From NCBI GenBank assembly GCA_958295905.1, contig OY282382.1, forward strand, positions 4,646,910 through 4,710,909: DNA of 64,000 nucleotides, written 5' to 3'. The translations under genes and the position numbers were made by a program. Of the stretch, positions 1 through 14,374 are shown piece after piece (the stretch's first letter is position 1; each line of letters begins with the position of its first letter). The stretch is from an uncultured Vicinamibacterales bacterium. GTDB taxonomy: Bacteria > Acidobacteriota > Vicinamibacteria > Vicinamibacterales > UBA8438. The notes beneath the pieces are model-generated. The model had not been told where the DNA came from. It saw nothing but the letters and a program-made list of their open reading frames with translations, and ran no database searches.

Positions 1-2787
1 GAAGCGCACGGACGTGTTGAACGCCCCGCTGCCCGGGCGCCCGACGACGCTGGCCCCCGCGTACAGACCGTCGCCGACGGGACCGCCGAGGGCCGGGCCG
101 AGCGCGCCGCCCCGCACGTACAGCACGTCGAAGGCGGTGGTCGCCGCCCGCCAGTCGATTTCGGTGAATCCGCCGACGAGCCGCGCGCCGGCGTCGACGT
201 CGTTGAGCGGCGCGTAGCCCGGCGCCGGGCTGGCTGGAAGCGGGAAGTGCCGGTTGACGCCGCCCCAGCCGTAGAGTCCCGTGAACCTGAGGTTGACGGC
301 TCCGCCGGCGCGGAGGTTGTTGCGCGTCACGCCCACCGCGTCGATGAAGTCGTTGATCAGCAGGCCTTCCTGGAAACTGACGGGCTGGCGCCCGACGGAC
401 AGGCCGATGTCGAGACCGCGGCGGTCGCCGGCGTCGAGGTTCGGAAACAGCTCGCCCAGATCGCCTTCGAAGAAGAGATGGGTCAGCGTATTCCAGTCGA
501 AGTTGAGCTGGTTGCTGAGGCCGCCGGTTCCCGGCGGGGCCGACGTATACCCCGTGAACCGCAGCGCGCCGAACGGCTGGCCGGGACCGAGCCGATGCCC
601 CCGGTGCGTCGGACGCAGTCCGAACACGACGCGCTCGGTGCCGGTGAGGGCGAGGTTCGCGAACAGATCGAGACGGTTCGCCCACTGGCTGCGCTGTCCC
701 GACCCGTCGTCGAGGACGCCGAAGCCGCTGCGGAGGGTGCCGAACATCAGGAACGACGGCGTCCACACCGCGCCGCCCGGCATCGTGAACCCGCGGCCGA
801 TCCGTCCGGTGCCGAGAAACGGCGGTCCCAGTTCGAGGAGCGGCCTCGGGCGCTGCGGAAACCCGTCCAACTGCAACGGCACGTAGTGGTCGGTGATGCG
901 GCTGTCCCCGTGTTCCCCGGTCTCGTGTCCGCCCCCGGCGGCCGCCGCCGGGCGCGGGGCCGGCGCCGCGCCGGTCTCCACGCCGCCGCCGGTCAGGTCC
1001 ACGTCGAGCTCGCGCACGACCACGTGGCCCGCGACCACCGCATCCGCCACGTCCCGCGCCGTCATGCCGTAGTCGAACCCCACGTCCTCGATCTCGTGCA
1101 CCAGATTGACCGGCACCATCCCCGCCTTGATGCGGATGTTGGCGTAGTACGGACCGGTGGCGCCGGCCAGCGCCTCCCGGGCGACCGAGTACGACGCCCA
1201 CTTGCCGCCCCGCGGCGGTATCGTCTGGCGGTGCTTGCGCGCGGCCACCGGCCGCCCCGTAAGAACCGTCGAACGGGTCGACGGACGCAGGAACGGCAGC
1301 GGATCGGGTGAATAGGGGATCGTCAGCACCTGCTCGCGCTCGCCGCCGCGCACCATCCGCACGAGAAAGCGGGACTGCAGGCTGAACAGGTGCTCGTCGG
1401 CGGGCAACGCACCGTCGTGCACGTACACCGAATGGCTGTCGCGGACGTCCCCGTTGGGGTCGAGGTCGCCCGACTCGAAGACCACGCGCCCGGTCGCGTC
1501 CGTCACCGTCACGTGCAGCCAGACCACGCGTTCGGCGTCGAAGCCGGTCGGCACGTTGTGGCCGTCGGTGCCGTTCCTGAACTCGACCCGGAACGCGATG
1601 CCCCCCTCGTCGGCGCGATCGACGACCACTTCGCCGAGCTGATATCCCGCCCGCAGGAGCTTCAGCCGCTGGTCGGCGAGCTCGTCCAGCAGATCGAGGT
1701 TGTCGCGAATGACGTCGGCGGCGTCGTAGCGGTCGTCGGGCTCGACCCAGCGCGGGGGGAAGGCGTAGTCGTCGGGCGCCGAGTCCTCGAACTCGTCGGT
1801 TCCCCATCCCGCCGTGTAGTCGAAGGTGAGCCACTCGCGCAACGTCGCGAGCTCCTGGGCCTCGGTGTTGTGCGGGAAGATGCCGGGGTGCACGATGGAA
1901 TAGTCGGGACCGGCGAACATGTGGTTCGTCCGTTTCCGGGGCCGCGTCCCGCGGCCGCCGACCCGCGCCGCCGGCCCCGTCGCATAGCCCGACGGCACCC
2001 CCGGCTCGGTCCCCATGTGACAGTCCTGGCAACTGACGCCGGCGGCGGCGGCCGGGGTGTGCTTGTACTCGCTGAACGCCTCCTCCAGCCGGAACCCGTT
2101 CACCAGATTCACGTCGTGGCACGACCCGCAGAACCCGGGCTTCGACAACTGCGAGAACTCGCGCGCCTCGGCGTGCACGCCGCGGCCGGCGCGCTCCGGG
2201 TCGGTCTGCAGATTGAACCGGCCGCTCTCGATGGCGCGCTCGAGCTCTTCGTTGCCGCCCGGCCCGAACACCGGATCGTAGAGGCTGCCCTCGACGATCG
2301 GCAGCCGGCCGCTGATCTTCCCGTAGGGCTGATCCTGTCGATGACAGACGATGCACGTGATGCCTTCGCGCGACGTGGGGTGCCGGTCGAGGTTCGACAT
2401 GAACTCGGGCTCCTCGAGGTTCATGCCGACCGGCGTATGGCACCGGATGCAGAAGTCGCCGTTCGTACCGTTCGTCTCCTTCAGAATCTTGGCGTGCATC
2501 GCGTTGAAGACGGGACTCATCTGCGCATAGGCATGCGACGAGACCGACCACTCGCGATAGATGTCCTCGTGGCAGGGCGCGCAGGTCGTCGCCGACGGGA
2601 AGCGGTCTTCGGCGAACAGCGCGGCGTGGTCGGCGGCGGCCTCCGGCTGCCGGGACGCCGCGGGCGGCTCGGCGGCCGCCGCGGCCAGCGAGGCAGCCAG
2701 GATGCCCGCGGCGCACGGAATCAGCGCCCCCGGCCCCGCCCCCCGGCTCCCCTCCCCTGCTGCTTCGCAACGCGCCCAACGTCTCAT
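1..2787 (-). CDS. Five-haem c-type cytochrome fused to an outer-membrane beta-barrel (3' end beyond window)
   Basis: An uninterrupted minus-strand frame of 929 codons runs off the left edge. The ATG at 2787 has a GGAGGG Shine-Dalgarno nine bases upstream. The first ~45 residues look like a signal peptide (hydrophobic stretch ending in an Ala run). Five CXXCH haem sites follow: TCAPCH (~69), FCIRCH (~112), TCIVCH (~144), FCGSCH (~219) and SCQDCH (~251). A beta-rich middle region lies at ~340-620. From ~residue 670 the sequence changes to alternating aromatic/glycine strands with porin-like motifs such as VGRQPVSFQEGLLINDF. Multihaem cytochromes and porins normally pair as separate proteins in extracellular electron conduits; here both appear in one chain. 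Haem count and continuity are seen directly; the barrel and the electron-transfer role are inferred. Remaining length is unknown. Confidence 0.85.
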   Translation of the reverse strand, partial: MRRWARCEAAGEGSRGAGPGALIPCAAGILAASLAAAAAEPPAASRQPEAAADHAALFAEDRFPSATTCAPCHEDIYREWSVSSHAYAQMSPVFNAMHAKILKETNGTNGDFCIRCHTPVGMNLEEPEFMSNLDRHPTSREGITCIVCHRQDQPYGKISGRLPIVEGSLYDPVFGPGGNEELERAIESGRFNLQTDPERAGRGVHAEAREFSQLSKPGFCGSCHDVNLVNGFRLEEAFSEYKHTPAAAAGVSCQDCHMGTEPGVPSGYATGPAARVGGRGTRPRKRTNHMFAGPDYSIVHPGIFPHNTEAQELATLREWLTFDYTAGWGTDEFEDSAPDDYAFPPRWVEPDDRYDAADVIRDNLDLLDELADQRLKLLRAGYQLGEVVVDRADEGGIAFRVEFRNGTDGHNVPTGFDAERVVWLHVTVTDATGRVVFESGDLDPNGDVRDSHSVYVHDGALPADEHLFSLQSRFLVRMVRGGEREQVLTIPYSPDPLPFLRPSTRSTVLTGRPVAARKHRQTIPPRGGKWASYSVAREALAGATGPYYANIRIKAGMVPVNLVHEIEDVGFDYGMTARDVADAVVAGHVVVRELDVDLTGGGVETGAAPAPRPAAAAGGGHETGEHGDSRITDHYVPLQLDGFPQRPRPLLELGPPFLGTGRIGRGFTMPGGAVWTPSFLMFGTLRSGFGVLDDGSGQRSQWANRLDLFANLALTGTERVVFGLRPTHRGHRLGPGQPFGALRFTGYTSAPPGTGGLSNQLNFDWNTLTHLFFEGDLGELFPNLDAGDRRGLDIGLSVGRQPVSFQEGLLINDFIDAVGVTRNNLRAGGAVNLRFTGLYGWGGVNRHFPLPASPAPGYAPLNDVDAGARLVGGFTEIDWRAATTAFDVLYVRGGALGPALGGPVGDGLYAGASVVGRPGSGAFNTSVRF

Positions 2788-2831: not shown

Positions 2832-4304
2832 TCAGGGGGCGACCCGAACCACCGTCACGCGGTCGCCCAGCTTCACGGTCGCGCCGTCGCCGACCTCCGT
2901 CATCCCCGCCGATCGGGCCCCGTCGACGAACGTACCGTTCAGACTGTCGAGATCCTCGACGGTCACCCGGCCGCCGCGCACGACCAAGGCGGCGTGGCGG
3001 CGTGACAGCGTCCGGTCGTCGATGGGCACGTCGCAGCCCTTCGCGCGGCCGAAGACGTGCCGGCCGTCGCCGAGGCGCATCCGACGCGGCTCGCCGTCGA
3101 CGATCCGAACCTCGAACGACACGCCCGCGGGCGACGCCGCCTTGCCCGGCGGCGCCGCGGACGCAGCCGCCGACGACGGCGGAGCGGCGCCGCCGGGCGG
3201 TTCGGGTCGCGGCCCCCCGGACGCCCCCGTTCCCGCGTCGGCGCCGGCCTCCGCGCCCGCCGACGCAGAATCGACAGCCGCAACGAGCGGCGGGACCGAC
3301 AACGCCGACGCAGGCTCGTAGCGCGTCGACGATGCGGGCGACGCCCCCGCGGGCGACGCGGACGGCGATGCCGGCGCCGACCCCGCCGAGCGGCCAGACC
3401 CCGCGACCTTCGACGCAGAATCGACAGCCGCGCCGGCGGCAGGGCCGCTACCCGCGACGAGCGGCGGAACCGACAGCGCCGACGCAGGCTCATAGCGCGT
3501 CGACGACGCGGGCGACGCGCCGGCGGACGGCGCGGGCGGCGATGCCGGCACCGACCCCGCCGAGCGGCCAGACCCCGCGACCTTCGACGCAGAATCGACA
3601 GCCGCGCCGGCGGCAGGGCCGCTACCCGCGACGAGCGGCGGGACCGACAGCGCCGACGCAGGCTCATAGCGCGTCGACGACGCGGGCGACGCGCCGGCGG
3701 ACGGCGCGGGCGGCGATGCCGGCACCGACCCCGCCGAGCGGCCAGACCCCGCGACCTTCGACGCAGAATCGACAGCCGCGCCGGCGGCAGGGCCGCTACC
3801 CGCGATGAGCGGCGGAACCGACAACGCCGACGCAGGCTCGTGGCGCGTCGACGACGCGCCGGCGACCGGCGCCGCCGCATCCGACCCGCGGGCGACGGCC
3901 ACGGCCGCACGCTCATCCGTTTCCCCGGCCGGCGTCGGGATCGCCGCCGGCGAGTCCGCCGCCGCGCTCGGCCCCGCGTCCTCGGCCGGAACGACGAAGA
4001 TGAAGTCGTGCTGCCCGCCGAGGGTCACCACGTGCAGGTCGCGCAAACGGGCCCGACCCGAGACCGGCGCGCCGTCCAGCCGCGTCCCGTTCGTGCTGCC
4101 GAGATCCTCCAGGAACCACGAGGCGGCGGCGGCGTCGAACGCGATCCGCGCATGCGTCTTCGATACGACGCTATCGGCGACCACGATGGTGTTCGCCGAT
4201 CCGCGCCCGATCGTCGCGTGCCCGCCGATCCGGTAATCGGACCCCGCCAGCGCGCCCGTCCTGCAGAAAAATCTCGCCTCCACGCTGCTCCCCGGTCTCT
4301 TCAT
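2832..4304 (-). CDS. Double FHA-domain protein with repetitive linker
   Basis: 490 aa. An FHA domain lies at each end. The N-terminal one (about 20-95) shows GRGSANTIV, SKTHARI and LGSTNGTRLDG; the C-terminal one (about 400-488) shows FGRAKGCDVPI, LSRRHAAL and DSLNGTFVDG. These match the phosphothreonine-binding FHA core (GR, SxxH, NG). The ~280-residue linker is Ala/Ser/Pro-rich and made of 58-residue tandem repeats. It lies downstream of a Ser/Thr kinase gene in the same orientation, so it probably reads out phosphorylation by that kinase (inference). No signal peptide is visible, so it is probably cytoplasmic. The ATG lacks a clear ribosome-binding site and follows a broken second FHA segment, so the start is uncertain. 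Confidence 0.85.
   Translation of the reverse strand: MKRPGSSVEARFFCRTGALAGSDYRIGGHATIGRGSANTIVVADSVVSKTHARIAFDAAAASWFLEDLGSTNGTRLDGAPVSGRARLRDLHVVTLGGQHDFIFVVPAEDAGPSAAADSPAAIPTPAGETDERAAVAVARGSDAAAPVAGASSTRHEPASALSVPPLIAGSGPAAGAAVDSASKVAGSGRSAGSVPASPPAPSAGASPASSTRYEPASALSVPPLVAGSGPAAGAAVDSASKVAGSGRSAGSVPASPPAPSAGASPASSTRYEPASALSVPPLVAGSGPAAGAAVDSASKVAGSGRSAGSAPASPSASPAGASPASSTRYEPASALSVPPLVAAVDSASAGAEAGADAGTGASGGPRPEPPGGAAPPSSAAASAAPPGKAASPAGVSFEVRIVDGEPRRMRLGDGRHVFGRAKGCDVPIDDRTLSRRHAALVVRGGRVTVEDLDSLNGTFVDGARSAGMTEVGDGATVKLGDRVTVVRVAP
3311..3840. repeat. 174-bp tandem repeats in the FHA linker
   Basis: The block beginning CAGGCTC recurs at 3311, 3485, 3659 and 3833, exactly 174 bp (58 codons) apart. 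The central units are almost identical and the outer ones diverge. The period is a multiple of three, so copy-number change keeps the frame. Confidence 0.9.
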
Positions 4305-4315
4305 GTCCGCCAGGC

Positions 4316-4455
4316 GATGCGCGCGTGGTCTTCGACACGACTGCGGCGACGACCACGATAGTGTTGTCCGGCCCGCGGCCTGTCGTCGCTTCGTCGCCGA
4401 TCCGATGGTCGGCCCCCAGCAACTCGCCCGTTCTGCGGAAGAATCCCGCTTGCGC
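4316..4455 (-). pseudogene. Remnant of a duplicated FHA N-terminus
   Basis: The minus-strand translation (GFFRRTGELLGADHRIG, TGRGPDNTIVV, VVSKTTRAS) closely matches the start of the adjacent FHA protein (RFFCRTGALAGSDYRIG, IGRGSANTIVV, VVSKTHARI). It ends just upstream of the intact gene. It is read in frame with a residual permease tail, so it is probably debris from a partial tandem duplication. Confidence 0.7.
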
Positions 4456-4496
4456 GATGCGCACCGTTCCCCTACATGCGTTCGCCGACCGACTAT

Positions 4497-4625
4497 ATTC
4501 TTCGTACCGGACGGCGTCGAGCGGCTGGAGTCGGGCCGCCTGCGACGCTGGATAGATCCCGAAAACGAGCTCGAAGACGGCCGACACGCCGAAGGCCAGC
4601 CCGACGGCGACGGCCGACACGCTAT
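4497..4625 (-). pseudogene. C-terminal remnant of a MacB-like permease
   Basis: About 43 codons survive (SVSAVAVGLAFGVSAV, LVFGIYPASQAARLQPLDAV), matching the end of the intact permease at 10509-11726. The break joins directly to the 3' end of kinase copy A, so an internal deletion removed the rest. A five-base insertion near the old stop makes the frame read through into the FHA remnant. Confidence 0.85.
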
Positions 4626-4628
4626 GGC

Positions 4629-7223
4629 TCACGCCGGGGGACGAGGAAATCCGCTTTCCGCCAAGTCGACGTCGATCGTCGTGCGCTCGCCGACGGCAAT
4701 CTCCACCACCCGCGGGTACCGCCACGCGTCGGTTTCCAGGCGAATTCGGTGTCGTCCCGCGGGTAACCGCACCACGAGTTCGACGACGACGCCCAGCGAG
4801 CGGTCGTCGACGAACAGCTCCGCCGCCGGCGCCGTGCGAACGGCCAGCACGCCGCAGGCGGCGCCGGCGCCACAGGTCAACGCCGCGGCGTTGGCTGCGC
4901 GTTGCAGCCCTTCGGCGGCGGCGGGAGACGGGCGCAGGTCGTTCGACTGTCGAAAGAGCGCACCCGCGTCGGCGTACCGGCCGTCAGCGAACGCCGCGTT
5001 CGCCTCCTCCACCAGTCTGTCCTCATTGCGCCGGTCGATCGCCGTCCTGACACGCCGCTGGCCGTCCCGCGCGGTCCGGTTGTCGGGATCGCGCTCGATC
5101 ACACGGGCGTAGAGGGCCAGCGCCGCCGCGGCGTTTCCGGCGACCTCCGCGGCGACGGCGTCGTTGAGCAGGGGGGCAACACCCGGCCCGCGCGGCTCGG
5201 GCGCCGGCGATGACCGGACCGCCGCCCGCGGCGCCGCGGGCGGCGATGGGACCGAGCGGGCATCTTCGGCGTCGCCCCCGCGAACCTCGGGGGCGGAACC
5301 TGCTTCAGGTCTGGAATCCGGTGCCCCGGAACCGGTGAGGGCATCTTCCCGGCGCGGCGGGTCGGTCTCAAGGATCTGGGCGCCAGGATCGAAACCGCTC
5401 TTTGGGGTGTCCAGAGCGACCCCTTCGGATTCGCCGCCGAACGGCGCCAGCCACAGACCTGTCGCCACCGCGGCCACGGCAACCACGGCGGCAACCGCCG
5501 CCAGCGGGTTCGTCAGGCTCGGCCACACGTTCGCCAAGCCGCGCACGCCGCCGCCGACCGGCGGCACCTTCCGCGTGAGACCGTCGAGCGCGCGCGTGCG
5601 GCCCGCGTCCGCGGCCGAGTCCGGACCCGGCCGCGCCCACCGCGCCAGCGGGTTGGCAGATCCGTCCCGCAACGATTTGCGCGCCTGCTGAATCGCCTCC
5701 CCGACGGTGGCGCGCTCCGCCTCGACCAGATCGTGGGGCGGGGCGAATCGCGCGAGCAGGTCGTGCGCCGCCGCGAAGTCGCCGCCGGCGCACGCTTGGC
5801 GCGCCTCCTCGACGACGCCCAGCGCCCGGCTGTCGTGCTCGGCCCGCTCCGCCCGCGTCTTCGACCGCAGGGCGGCCTCGTGCCCCGGTTCGATCGCTAG
5901 AACTTCGTCCGACGTCCGCGCCGCCTCCCTGAACGCACCCTCTGTCACGAGTCGTTCGGCTCTCTCCAGCAACCGGTCGATCGACCGCCGGCGCTCGACG
6001 TCGTTTCGTATCTTCAGCGCCTCGGGAGATTCCGGCCGTGCCTGCAGCGCCAAGTCCACGCTCTCGGACGCCTGCGTCAACGCCAGGTTCTTCAGATGCA
6101 TCCTGGCGTTCGACACGTGTTCATCGAACTGCCGATCACGGCGCACGGCGGCGAGGCGCGCCATCACCTGCAGCACGCGCGCGTCGTCCGGGTCGAGCAG
6201 TGCGGCCTGATCGATCGCCTCCTGCGCGTCGTCGTAGCGCCCGCGTTCGATCGCCTCCTGCGCGTCGCCGAAGCACGCCGTCAACCGGGCGTTCCGCCGC
6301 TGGCGCAACGCCTCCCGGTCGAGCCCGCTCCCGCTGGTAGAGGTGGACGGGGCCGGCTTCGGAGCCTCACGCGGCAGCAGAATCGTCGACTCGGGCTCGC
6401 GGCCGTCCTTCTCGACGCCTGCGATGGCGGCGTCGAGTTCCGCGAGCACTTCGCTCATCTGCTGGAACCGATCACCGGCGCGCTTGACGATCGCCCGCTC
6501 GACGAGCGTGAGGAGGCTCTCGGGCAGATCCGGAACCAGCTCGCGGAGCGGAGTCGGCTCTTCGTGCACAATCCGGTACGTCACCGCGGTCGGCGTGTCG
6601 CCGTCGAACGCCCGTCGATACGACAACAGCTCGTAGCAGACCAGGCCGACCGCGAAGATGTCGCACCGGTGATCGACGCCGCCGCCGACGATCTGTTCGG
6701 GTGCCATGTAGCTGGGCGTCCCGATCATCCTGCCGTCGCCCGTCAGCGTGTCCGCCAGCCGCGCGATGCCGAAATCAAGGATCGTGAGCGCGCCGGAATC
6801 ATCGCGGACCATCAGGTTGGCGGGCTTGATGTCGCGATGCACGACCCCCTGGGCGTGCGCGTACGCCAAGCCGTTGCACAGCTCGCGCAGCATCCGCAGG
6901 CGCGGCAGAATGGGCAGCGGCGCGCGCTCGCGGACGATCTCCGCGAGTGTCCGGCCGGGCACGTACTCCATGGCGATGAACGGCTCACCGCCGTGCTCGC
7001 CGACGTCGAAGATCGTGACGATGTTCCGGTGGTCGAGGCGCCCAGTGGCGCGGGCCTCCCGCAGGAACCGCTGCCGCAGTTCGGCGTCCTGCACGTGCGC
7101 CACCTTGATCGCGACCCGCCGGTCGATGGTCGGGTCGCGGGCGAGGTACAGCACGCCCATCCCGCCGCTGCCGATCCGCTCGACGACCCGGTAGCGGCCG
7201 ATGAAGACCGGGTGATCGGACAT
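4629..7223 (-). CDS. Ser/Thr protein kinase with TPR-like region, TM helix and PEGA domain (copy A)
   Basis: 864 aa. The N-terminal Hanks-type kinase domain (about 11-270) has the glycine loop IGSGGMG (17-23), Lys40 in VAIK, HRDIKPAN (Asp131), DFG (Asp150) and APE, so it should be active. A helical, TPR-like region spans roughly 300-520, one hydrophobic helix lies near 574-594, and a PEGA domain (about 785-860) ends the protein. This implies a cytoplasmic kinase anchored in the inner membrane with a periplasmic sensor or cell-surface-binding tail. It is nearly identical to 11738-14374, differing mainly by a 14-residue insertion in that copy. The FHA protein downstream is a candidate phospho-partner (inference). 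Confidence 0.93.
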   Translation of the reverse strand: MSDHPVFIGRYRVVERIGSGGMGVLYLARDPTIDRRVAIKVAHVQDAELRQRFLREARATGRLDHRNIVTIFDVGEHGGEPFIAMEYVPGRTLAEIVRERAPLPILPRLRMLRELCNGLAYAHAQGVVHRDIKPANLMVRDDSGALTILDFGIARLADTLTGDGRMIGTPSYMAPEQIVGGGVDHRCDIFAVGLVCYELLSYRRAFDGDTPTAVTYRIVHEEPTPLRELVPDLPESLLTLVERAIVKRAGDRFQQMSEVLAELDAAIAGVEKDGREPESTILLPREAPKPAPSTSTSGSGLDREALRQRRNARLTACFGDAQEAIERGRYDDAQEAIDQAALLDPDDARVLQVMARLAAVRRDRQFDEHVSNARMHLKNLALTQASESVDLALQARPESPEALKIRNDVERRRSIDRLLERAERLVTEGAFREAARTSDEVLAIEPGHEAALRSKTRAERAEHDSRALGVVEEARQACAGGDFAAAHDLLARFAPPHDLVEAERATVGEAIQQARKSLRDGSANPLARWARPGPDSAADAGRTRALDGLTRKVPPVGGGVRGLANVWPSLTNPLAAVAAVVAVAAVATGLWLAPFGGESEGVALDTPKSGFDPGAQILETDPPRREDALTGSGAPDSRPEAGSAPEVRGGDAEDARSVPSPPAAPRAAVRSSPAPEPRGPGVAPLLNDAVAAEVAGNAAAALALYARVIERDPDNRTARDGQRRVRTAIDRRNEDRLVEEANAAFADGRYADAGALFRQSNDLRPSPAAAEGLQRAANAAALTCGAGAACGVLAVRTAPAAELFVDDRSLGVVVELVVRLPAGRHRIRLETDAWRYPRVVEIAVGERTTIDVDLAESGFPRPPA

Positions 7224-10508: not shown

Positions 10509-11726
10509 CTATTCGTACCGGACGGCGTCGACCGGCTGGAGTCGGGCCGCCTGCGACGCTGGATAGATCCCGAACACGAGTCCGACGACGGCCGACACAC
10601 CGAAGGCCAACCCAACGGCGACGGGCGACACGCTGGTGCTCCACGCGGCGTACGCAGTGATGGCGTACGCCGTGACCACGCCGGCGACGACCCCAAGAGC
10701 GCCGCCGGCCAGCGTCACCATCAGGCTCTCGGCCAGAAACTGCGCGACGATGTCCCGCGCCGTCGCGCCCACGACGCGCCGCAGGCCGATCTCTCGAGTC
10801 CGCTCGATCACCGATGTCAACATGGTGTTCATGATCCCGATGCCGCCGACGAGCAGCGACAGCACCGCTACGCTGCCAACGACGACGTTGAAGGCCTGTT
10901 GCGTGCGGACCCGCTGGTTCAGCAGATCCCGCGGCACGACGACGTCGAGCGCCGGCGCGTCTCCGTGCGCACGGGCCAGAGTGCGCGCAATCGACCCCGC
11001 GACCGCCGGCACGTCGTCGCCGTCCGCGATCTGCAGCCAGACCTCGTCGATCCGTTGTCCGGGCGCTACGACCGGACTGGTCGGGAGGACGCTCGTGATG
11101 GCCGCAATGACGACGCCGTCGAGGTCGCGGGCCGCCGCGGTGCGGCCCGCCCGCCCCCCGGTCGATCGAGGGGCCAGGACGCCGACCACCTCGCACCAGC
11201 CCCGATCTACCTGCACCTGCGCGCCGATCGGATCGCGGTACCCGAACAGCACGCGGCGCAACCGCGCCCCCAGCACGCAGACCGGAACCGCCGTGCGCCG
11301 GTCGGGCGGGGTCAGGAACCGCCCCCGCCCGACATCGAGATCCAGCACCGTCCCGTACGCCGGCGTGACGCCGAGCAGGGACGTCCGGCGGCTGGCCAGG
11401 GGACCGGACACGACGACGAAGCGATCGACCAACGGACTGACGGCGACGACTTGCGGCAACAGCTCGCGCAGCAGGCCGGCGTCCTCCAGGCGCAGCCCCG
11501 CGCCGCCGCCGAAGTTCCGGTTCCGCACAATGACGTTGTCGAGGCCGAGCTGCTCGACCTGCCGCAGGACATCCTCGCGGGCACCCTCGCCGACCGACAG
11601 CATGGCGATCACGGCGGCGACGCCCAAGACGATGCCGAGCGTGCTCAGCGCCGTTCGCAGCCGATAGCGACGCAACGCCTCCACGCTGACGAGGAGGATC
11701 TCGGCGCGCCGGCTCCAGTTCGACAT
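10509..11726 (-). CDS. MacB/FtsX-type ABC transporter permease
   Basis: 405 aa. An N-terminal transmembrane helix (LRTALSTLGIVLGVAAVIAM) is followed by a periplasmic MacB-like core (about 50-270) and three C-terminal helices, the usual MacB permease layout without the fused ATPase. The ATG lies 11 bases beyond the kinase B stop, so the two are probably co-transcribed. Together with TolC and HlyD-type genes a few kb upstream on the same strand it could form a tripartite exporter. No ATPase subunit is visible in the window, so it must be supplied elsewhere or be absent. The last residues (LVFGIYPASQAARLQPVDAV) match the remnant at 4497-4625. Confidence 0.9.
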   Translation of the reverse strand: MSNWSRRAEILLVSVEALRRYRLRTALSTLGIVLGVAAVIAMLSVGEGAREDVLRQVEQLGLDNVIVRNRNFGGGAGLRLEDAGLLRELLPQVVAVSPLVDRFVVVSGPLASRRTSLLGVTPAYGTVLDLDVGRGRFLTPPDRRTAVPVCVLGARLRRVLFGYRDPIGAQVQVDRGWCEVVGVLAPRSTGGRAGRTAAARDLDGVVIAAITSVLPTSPVVAPGQRIDEVWLQIADGDDVPAVAGSIARTLARAHGDAPALDVVVPRDLLNQRVRTQQAFNVVVGSVAVLSLLVGGIGIMNTMLTSVIERTREIGLRRVVGATARDIVAQFLAESLMVTLAGGALGVVAGVVTAYAITAYAAWSTSVSPVAVGLAFGVSAVVGLVFGIYPASQAARLQPVDAVRYE

Positions 11727-11737
11727 TCGTCAACGGC

Positions 11738-14374
11738 TCACGCCGGGGGACGAGGAAATCCGCTTTCCGCCAAGTCGACGTCGATCGTCGTGCGCTCGCC
11801 GACGGCAATCTCCACCACCCGCGGGTGCCGCCACGCGTCGGTTTCCAGGCGAATTCGGTGTCGTCCCGCGGGTAACCGCACCACGAGTTCGACGACGACG
11901 CCCAGCGAACGGTCGTCGACGAACAGCTCCGCCGCCGGCGCCGTGCGAACGGCCAGAACGCCGCAGGCGGCGCCGGCGCCACAGGTCAACGCCGCGGCGT
12001 TGGCTGCGCGTTGCAGCCCTTCGGCGGCGGCGGGAGACGGGCGCAGGTCGTTCGACTGTCGAAAGAGCGCACCCGCGTCGGCGTACCGGCCGTCAGCGAA
12101 CGCCGCGTTCGCCTCCTCCACCAGTCTGTCCTCATTGCGCCGGTCGATCGCCGTCCTGACACGCCGCTGGCCGTCCCGCGCGGTCCGGTTGTCGGGATCG
12201 CGCTCGATCACACGGGCGTAGAGGGCCAGCGCCGCCGCGGCGTTTCCGGCGACCTCCGCGGCGACGGCGTCGTTGAGCAGGGGGGCGACACCCGGCCCGC
12301 GCGGCTCGGGCGCCGGCGATGACCGGACCGCCGCCCGCGGCGCCGCGGGCGGCGATGGGACCGAGCGGGCATCTTCGGCGTCGCCCCCGCGAACCTCGGG
12401 GGCGGAACCTGCTTCATGTCTGGAATCCGGCGCCCCGGAACCGGTGAGGGCCTCTTCCCGGCGCGGCGGGTCGGTCTCAAGGATCTGGCCGCCAGGATCG
12501 AAACCGCTCTTTGGGGTGTCCAGAGCGACCCCTTCGGATTCGCCGCCGAACGGCGCCAGCCACAGACCTGTCGCCACCGCGGCCACGGCAACCACGGCGG
12601 CAACCGCCGCCGGCGGGTTCGTCAGGCTCGGCCACACGTTCGCCAAGCCGCGCACGCCGCCGCCGACCGGCGGCACCTTCCGCGTGAGACCGTCGAGCGC
12701 GCGCGTGCGGCCCGCGTCCGCGGCCGAGTCCGGACCCGGCCGCGCCCACCGCGCCGGCGGGTTGGCGGATCCGTCCCGCAACGATTTGCGCGCCTGCTGA
12801 ATCGCCTCCCCGACGGTGGCGCGCTCCGCCTCGACCAGATCGTGGGGCGGGGCGAATCGCGCGAGCAGGTCGTGCGCCGCCGCGAAGTCGCCGCCGGCGC
12901 ACGCTTGGCGCGCCTCCTCGACGACGCCCAGCGCCCGGCCGTCGTGCTCGGCCCGCTCCGCCCGCGTCTTCGACCGCAGGGCGGCCTCGTGCCCCGGTTC
13001 GATCGCCAGAACTTCGTCCGACGTCCGCGCCGCCTCCCTGAACGCGCCCTCTGCGACAAGTCGTTCGGCTCTCTCCAGCAACCGGTCGACCGACCGCCGG
13101 CGCTCGACGTCGTTCCGTATCTTCAGCGCCTCGGGAGATTCCGGCCGTGCCTGCAGCGCCAGTTCCACGTTCTCGGACGCCTGCGTCAACGCCAGGTTCT
13201 TCAGATGCATCCTGGCGTTCGACACGTGTTCCTCGAACTGCCGATCACGGCGCACGGCGGCGAGGCGCGCCATCACCTGCAGCACGCGCGCGTTGTCCGG
13301 GTCGAGCAGTGCGGCCTGCTCGATCGCCTCCTGCGCGTCGTCGTAGCGCCCGCGTTCGAGCGCGTCGCGCGCGTCATCAAGACACGCCGTCAACCGGGCG
13401 TTCCGCCGCTGGCGCAACGCCTCCCGGTCGAGCCCGTCCCCGCTGGTAGAGGTGGACGGGGCCGGCTTCGGATCCTCACGACAGGACCGCGGAGCGGTCA
13501 ACATCTTTGGCCTGGTCGGTCGCGGCAGCAGAATCGTCGACTCGGGCTCGCGGTCGTCCGTCTCGACGCCTGCGATGGCGGCGTCGAGTTCCGCGAGCAC
13601 TTCGCTCATCTGCTGGAACCGATCACCGACGCGCTTGACGATCGCCCGCTCGACGAGCGTGAGGAGGCTCTCGGGCAGATCCGGAACCAGCTCGCGGAGC
13701 GGGGTCGGCTCTTCGTGCACAATCCGGTACGTCACCGCGGTCGGCGTGTCGCCGTCGAACGCCCGTCGATACGACAACAGCTCGTAGCAGACCAAGCCGA
13801 CCGCGAAGATGTCGCACCGGTGATCGACGCCGCCGCCGACGATCTGTTCGGGCGCCATGTAGTTGGGCGTCCCGATCATCACACCGTCGCCCGTCAGCGT
13901 GTCCGCCAGCCGCGCGATGCCGAAATCGAGGATCGTGAGCGCGCCGGAATCATCGCGGACCATCAGGTTGGCGGGCTTGACGTCGCGATGCACCACGCCC
14001 TGGGCGTGCGCGTACGCCAAGCCGTCGCACAGCTCGCGCAGCATCCGCAGGCGCGGCGGAATGGGCAGCGGCGCGCGCTTGCGGACGATCTCCGCGAGCG
14101 TCCGGCCGGGCACGTACTCCATGGCGATGAACGGCTCACCGCCGTGCTCGCCGACGTCGAAGATCGTGACGATGTTCCGGTGGTCGAGGCGCCCGGTGGC
14201 GCGGGCCTCCCGCAGGAACCGCTGCCGCAGTTCGGCGTCCTGCACGTGCGCCACCTTGATCGCGACCCGCCGGTCGATGGTCGGGTCGCGGGCGAGGTAC
14301 AGCACGCCCATCCCGCCGCTGCCGATCCGCTCGACGACCCGGTAGCGGTCGATGAAGACCGGGTGATCGGACAT
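11738..14374 (-). CDS. Ser/Thr protein kinase with TPR-like region, TM helix and PEGA domain (copy B)
   Basis: 878 aa, with the same architecture as copy A: kinase domain with IGSGGMG, VAIK Lys40, HRD and DFG; helical repeats; a membrane helix near 588-608; and a PEGA domain at about 800-875. It carries a 14-residue insertion after the kinase domain (around RPTRPKMLTAPRS) and scattered substitutions (for example RDVKPAN instead of RDIKPAN). All catalytic residues are intact. It directly precedes the MacB-like permease, suggesting phospho-control of export or cell-envelope sensing (inference). Confidence 0.93.
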   Translation of the reverse strand: MSDHPVFIDRYRVVERIGSGGMGVLYLARDPTIDRRVAIKVAHVQDAELRQRFLREARATGRLDHRNIVTIFDVGEHGGEPFIAMEYVPGRTLAEIVRKRAPLPIPPRLRMLRELCDGLAYAHAQGVVHRDVKPANLMVRDDSGALTILDFGIARLADTLTGDGVMIGTPNYMAPEQIVGGGVDHRCDIFAVGLVCYELLSYRRAFDGDTPTAVTYRIVHEEPTPLRELVPDLPESLLTLVERAIVKRVGDRFQQMSEVLAELDAAIAGVETDDREPESTILLPRPTRPKMLTAPRSCREDPKPAPSTSTSGDGLDREALRQRRNARLTACLDDARDALERGRYDDAQEAIEQAALLDPDNARVLQVMARLAAVRRDRQFEEHVSNARMHLKNLALTQASENVELALQARPESPEALKIRNDVERRRSVDRLLERAERLVAEGAFREAARTSDEVLAIEPGHEAALRSKTRAERAEHDGRALGVVEEARQACAGGDFAAAHDLLARFAPPHDLVEAERATVGEAIQQARKSLRDGSANPPARWARPGPDSAADAGRTRALDGLTRKVPPVGGGVRGLANVWPSLTNPPAAVAAVVAVAAVATGLWLAPFGGESEGVALDTPKSGFDPGGQILETDPPRREEALTGSGAPDSRHEAGSAPEVRGGDAEDARSVPSPPAAPRAAVRSSPAPEPRGPGVAPLLNDAVAAEVAGNAAAALALYARVIERDPDNRTARDGQRRVRTAIDRRNEDRLVEEANAAFADGRYADAGALFRQSNDLRPSPAAAEGLQRAANAAALTCGAGAACGVLAVRTAPAAELFVDDRSLGVVVELVVRLPAGRHRIRLETDAWRHPRVVEIAVGERTTIDVDLAESGFPRPPA

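Follow-up and report, generated by a model that had tools for sequence, protein, structure and literature searches.

The gene at the left edge of the window (the whole stretch of DNA analysed, 64,000 nucleotides) raises the question of what a chain carrying both a multihaem cytochrome and a porin-like part would do, and whether the two are genuinely joined. The gene lies on the minus strand, with its ATG at window position 2787 and a frame that is open from 2787 to 1 (929 amino acids) and runs off the left edge. Recovery of the rest of the gene, as proposed in the initial annotation, gave from the retrieved flank a full frame of 1124 amino acids plus stop (G000:C1:4646322-4649696); 929 of the 1124 residues are in the window, and the final 195 codons, with the stop, are found beyond its edge (G000:C1:4646322-4646909). 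The earlier observation of five CXXCH sites and a porin-like C-terminal part in one frame was borne out, with all five sites inside the first 260 residues. The features of the gene are collected in Table 1.

Table 1. Features of the fused pentahaem cytochrome–barrel gene and its upstream neighbour, in window coordinates.
Feature	Window position	Strand	Residues	Basis
5′ 929 codons of the fused pentahaem cytochrome–barrel gene	1..2787	-		Open reading frame and flank
Putative signal peptide (hydrophobic run, lipobox not seen)	2671..2787	-	about 1-39	By eye from sequence
Five CXXCH haem sites, full span	2017..2583	-		Motif; invariant in relatives; Pfam PF13435
Individual CXXCH sites	2569-2583, 2437-2451, 2341-2355, 2116-2130, 2017-2031	-	69, 113, 145, 220, 253	
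Pentahaem cytochrome c552-like region	970..2628	-	54-606	VIA-align and profile match to 5ze8
Linker, with neither stop nor signal peptide, unlike split relatives	823..969	-	607-655	Comparison, dN/dS, pLDDT
Predicted outer-membrane beta-barrel, first part (continues to residue 1124 beyond the window)	1..822	-	656-929	Predicted fold
FHA-type gene, immediately upstream (44-base gap)	2832..4304	-		Coordinates; FHA-like ends by eye

The fold of the barrel part was predicted with AlphaFold2 from an alignment of 39 relatives, using as the query the fused homologue L052, which is 82% identical to the window's gene. The resulting model (mean pLDDT 85.8, pTM 0.85) contains a run of about 20 strands. In VIA-align comparisons it matched OccK7 with a Z of 25.3 and an rmsd of 3.1 over 322 of 370 residues, and the OprD/OccK porins with a Z of ~25 and an rmsd of about 3.0 over 309-335 residues. 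OprD/OccK porins are 18-stranded barrels, and outer-membrane barrels of this kind usually end in Phe; the C-terminal residue of the fused chain is Phe. The C-terminal part from about residue 656 is firmly predicted to be an outer-membrane beta-barrel of the 18-strand type, so that the porin-like part recognised earlier is now modelled as a membrane barrel. A soluble beta-sandwich, the fold that would speak against a barrel, was looked for by structure prediction and was not obtained, because the best solved Foldseek matches were all outer-membrane barrels (Campylobacter MOMP, AlgE, and OprD/OccK, with E down to 4e-11). The likeness to AlgE, MOMP, and the OprD/OccK porins of Pseudomonas is one of barrel fold (Z 20-25), whereas these proteins share only 6-13% identity with the barrel described here, have no cytochrome, and function in transport. 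No Pfam model, including that of the OprD family, matched any of the 39 barrel sequences, the barrel profile gave chance-level matches only against PDB sequences, and no second copy of the barrel was found in the window's own genome. MtrB was absent among the fold matches listed, the best of which were 18-stranded porins, although this absence says nothing by itself on likeness to MtrB.

For the cytochrome part, the protein was shuffled 20,000 times and no shuffle contained more than one CXXCH (mean 0.005), compared with the five observed, and all five are invariant across a 42-row alignment with 37-90% identity. Pfam Cytochrome_C554 (PF13435) was found above its cut-off in the N-terminal part, and the C-terminal part of the gene product gave no Pfam hit. 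The cytochrome part of the L052 model (residues 15-554) matched PDB entry 5ze8, the penta-haem cytochrome c552 of Thermochromatium tepidum, with a Z of 16.1 and an rmsd of 4.2 (VIA-align; 346 of 385 residues aligned, 19% identity), and its sequence profile matched the same entry with an E of 3.5e-19 over the haem region. As modelled, the N-terminal part has the penta-haem cytochrome c552 fold. The likeness to the T. tepidum protein covers the fold and the haem number of this part; the latter is a stand-alone cytochrome with no barrel in its chain, unlike the fused protein. The whole cytochrome part, of ~560 residues, contains a long helix and, towards its C-terminal end, a beta-rich part. Outside the haem motifs, His 54, 85, 205, 289, 300, 410, and 452 are invariant or nearly so, which is enough to supply five distal haem ligands; His410 and His452, both invariant, are in the beta-rich part, far from the haem motifs.

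The full chain was folded with L052 as the query and a 69-row joint alignment anchored on seven same-frame loci that had been read through the stop. The model had a pLDDT of 80.8 and a pTM of 0.82 over 1082 residues, with a pLDDT below 50 in the middle of the linker. A pTM of 0.82 is hard to reach without a defined relative placement of the two halves, and it is this value that suggests that the cytochrome is packed on the barrel in a defined placement. The linker may be cleaved post-translationally.

On the same strand, the downstream genes encode an eight-haem cytochrome, a protein that combines 4Fe-4S clusters with cyclic-nucleotide-binding domains, a b561-like membrane protein, a ten-haem cytochrome that has a membrane segment at its N terminus, and a flavoprotein containing FHA and 2Fe-2S domains. 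The b561 match in the L052 cluster is weak. Other phyla have most of the cluster partners as well, with NAD-binding/FAD/2Fe-2S proteins in place of the flavoprotein. As this redox set extends from the cytoplasm to the outer membrane, a trans-envelope electron route is likely. No surface-anchored (lipoprotein) cytochrome that would complete an MtrC-like chain was obvious in the cluster. Judging by gene order, the upstream FHA-type gene is possibly co-transcribed with the fused gene; an FHA domain is also present in the downstream flavoprotein. In a planctomycete, an FHA plus adenylate-cyclase gene (L085:3831-5567) adjoins the pentahaem gene, and this neighbour, taken with the cyclic-nucleotide-binding 4Fe-4S protein, hints that a cyclic nucleotide controls electron flow.

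A fused cytochrome–porin as such is not without precedent, since Cyc2, a protein with a single haem and a barrel predicted to have 16 strands, is already fused (PMC8406198). Cyc2 and Cyt572 also have an N-terminal c-type cytochrome and an outer-membrane barrel in one chain, and the cytochrome is expected to sit at the mouth on the periplasmic side (PMC8406198). Cyc2 differs, however, in its single haem, small cytochrome domain, and 16 strands, as opposed to five haems, ~560 residues, and the 18-strand type here, and in its gene cluster; membership of the Cyc2 family was rejected because there are five CXXCH sites, not one. The MtrAB/MtoAB/PioAB and Pcc complexes likewise combine a barrel with a multihaem cytochrome at the outer membrane, and MtrB is a 26-strand barrel holding a decahaem wire (PMC8406198). 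These systems are encoded by separate genes, with a decahaem or larger cytochrome within a 26-strand barrel, and no relation to them was seen; MtrAB membership was rejected on the five haem sites, as opposed to a decahaem MtrA-type cytochrome.

The closest working analogue appears to be the ExtI/ExtKL pair of Geobacter sulfurreducens, here in one chain. The extHIJKLMNOPQS cluster encodes the porin-like ExtI and the pentahaem ExtKL (PMC5877670), and the ExtKL pentahaem family has been linked to c552 (PMC11976967). Both systems place a porin-like protein, pentahaem and b-type cytochromes, an Fe-S protein, and further multihaem cytochromes in one cluster (PMC5877670, PMC11976967), and among the relatives examined here an ExtI-ExtKL-like arrangement is present, with a pentahaem cytochrome and a barrel side by side and b-type and other multihaem cytochromes nearby. 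In Geobacter the genes are separate and the other partner genes differ, and the barrel described here is one without a Pfam match. The best hit of the cytochrome part was the NCBIfam ExtKL model NF040886, but membership of that family was rejected because the score of 34.5 bits is far under the curated cut-off of 250; a search of the window's own genome with NF040886 returned nothing at an E of 1e-5.

Taken together, the gene probably encodes a single-chain outer-membrane redox protein with a C-terminal barrel of the 18-strand type and an N-terminal pentahaem cytochrome on the periplasmic side, at the barrel mouth. The polypeptide would be exported and its C-terminal half would form the barrel in the outer membrane, with the pentahaem cytochrome packed at the mouth in the periplasm. 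The electron path would connect two cytoplasmic proteins (flavin/2Fe-2S and cNMP-binding 4Fe-4S) with the b561-like protein and the ten- and eight-haem cytochromes, the pentahaem domain coming last. An electron-transfer role is likely, in either direction, and electrons would be routed through one polypeptide. In the favoured reading, the barrel would admit a soluble compound that accepts or donates electrons, as has been modelled for Cyc2 and ExtI; alternatively, it would let the haems approach the outer face. MtrB, with 26 strands, is wider than a barrel of the 18-strand type, so that the pore here may not hold a wire and may instead let a soluble substrate through to haems at its mouth in the periplasm.

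Two other readings of the function were weighed. In one, a substrate-specific porin carries a tethered enzyme in the periplasm, a reductase or oxidase acting on a soluble oxyanion or a comparable small molecule, and would not be a step in extracellular electron exchange. Channels with the OprD/OccK fold are substrate-specific, His410 and His452 are invariant at a distance from the haem motifs, and loss of ExtI impairs selenite and tellurite reduction in Geobacter, whose ext cluster also has a pentahaem cytochrome (PMC5877670); no unusual haem motif was found, however, as all five are CXXCH, and this reading is considered somewhat unlikely. It is improbable that the pentahaem domain lies partly inside the barrel as a haem wire, like MtrA in MtrB, and exchanges electrons directly with an extracellular solid or partner. 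The union of cytochrome and barrel in one chain, the envelope-wide redox chain offered by the cluster, and the compact full-chain prediction would all suit such a wire, but the best fold matches are 18-stranded and narrower than the 26-strand MtrB (PMC8406198), the cytochrome has ~560 residues with a beta-rich part, and a surface lipoprotein cytochrome was not seen in the cluster.

The single-chain form is not peculiar to one assembly, as the fusion is genuine in three genomes of one family: that of the window (G000), L052 (G499, which has the same protein), and G511. All three share a linker of about 50 residues that is stop-free and has no internal signal peptide, and purifying selection is indicated by dN/dS values of 0.17-0.27 (linker) and 0.07-0.23 (domains). 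The three fused forms make up one clade (support 100/100), with the nearest split form, L054, found in another Acidobacteriota genome. Across many phyla of the GTDB genome collection, 54 other loci with both parts complete (a count that leaves out L052 and the faulty L092) all consist of adjacent separate genes, and the initial annotation's view that separate cytochrome and porin subunits are the norm holds also for the protein's own relatives. A strongly hydrophobic leader precedes the barrel in 50 of the 54 split pairs, with weaker ones in most of the others, and in none of the three fused forms. That an assembly or sequencing error removed the stop between two ordinary genes, as the 54 split pairs and the apparent fusion in L092, which looks exactly like such an error, might lead one to think, is exceedingly improbable given that one and the same linker, free of stops and lacking the signal peptide, is shared by three genomes, that the linker dN/dS is below 0.3, and that the G000 assembly consists of three contigs.

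Among 162 genomes of the order, the gene is present in only three and is fused in all three, whereas another class of Acidobacteriota gave matches in 29 of 149 genomes, none of them fused; the fusion therefore probably arose once, in one family, and was then kept. Two genes that lie side by side in relatives would have been joined when the stop codon, the intergenic bases, and the signal peptide separating them were lost. L092 (Nitrospirales) was considered as an independent fusion and rejected; the barrel signal peptide is kept and there is another frameshift inside the cytochrome, which makes an error the likeliest cause. G521 and G577, distant relatives in which long open frames occur, turned out to be ordinary split pairs. 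Plasmids yielded distant cytochromes only. A distant pentahaem-barrel clade (L127:2201-4158, 38% identity) is followed by an apparent xanthine-dehydrogenase-type 2Fe-2S protein and not by the usual cluster, which suggests that this clade may use another electron partner.

Gene fusion is strong evidence of joint action and so ties the pentahaem family to an unnamed barrel family that has no Pfam model, within a cluster found in many phyla. The fused protein fills a gap between the one-haem Cyc2 and the multi-subunit MtrAB, and a one-chain version could be easier to express and solve than a multi-subunit complex. A search of the open-licence literature brought up no description of a porin joined to a multihaem cytochrome. 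It may tentatively be proposed that this is the first multihaem cytochrome–barrel fusion and holds the key to a widespread electron route, as yet uncharacterised and under cyclic-nucleotide control, that runs between cytoplasmic flavoproteins and the outside and extends from the Acidobacteriota to the Nitrospirota, Planctomycetota, and Pseudomonadota.

Some further features of the window were noted. The upstream FHA-type gene contains a 174-base tandem repeat (window 3278-3858; 3.3 copies, 95% match) that encodes a Pro/Ala-rich spacer. Two Ser/Thr kinase genes, at window 4629-7223 and 11738-14374 (both minus strand), encode proteins that are 95% identical, with ~98% DNA identity over 2.6 kb, and the pair is, by this degree of identity, apparently a recent duplication near the electron-transfer cluster. 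Beside the second kinase is a MacB-like ABC permease-type frame (window 10509-11726, minus strand), a fragment of which is seemingly present at 4171-4725.
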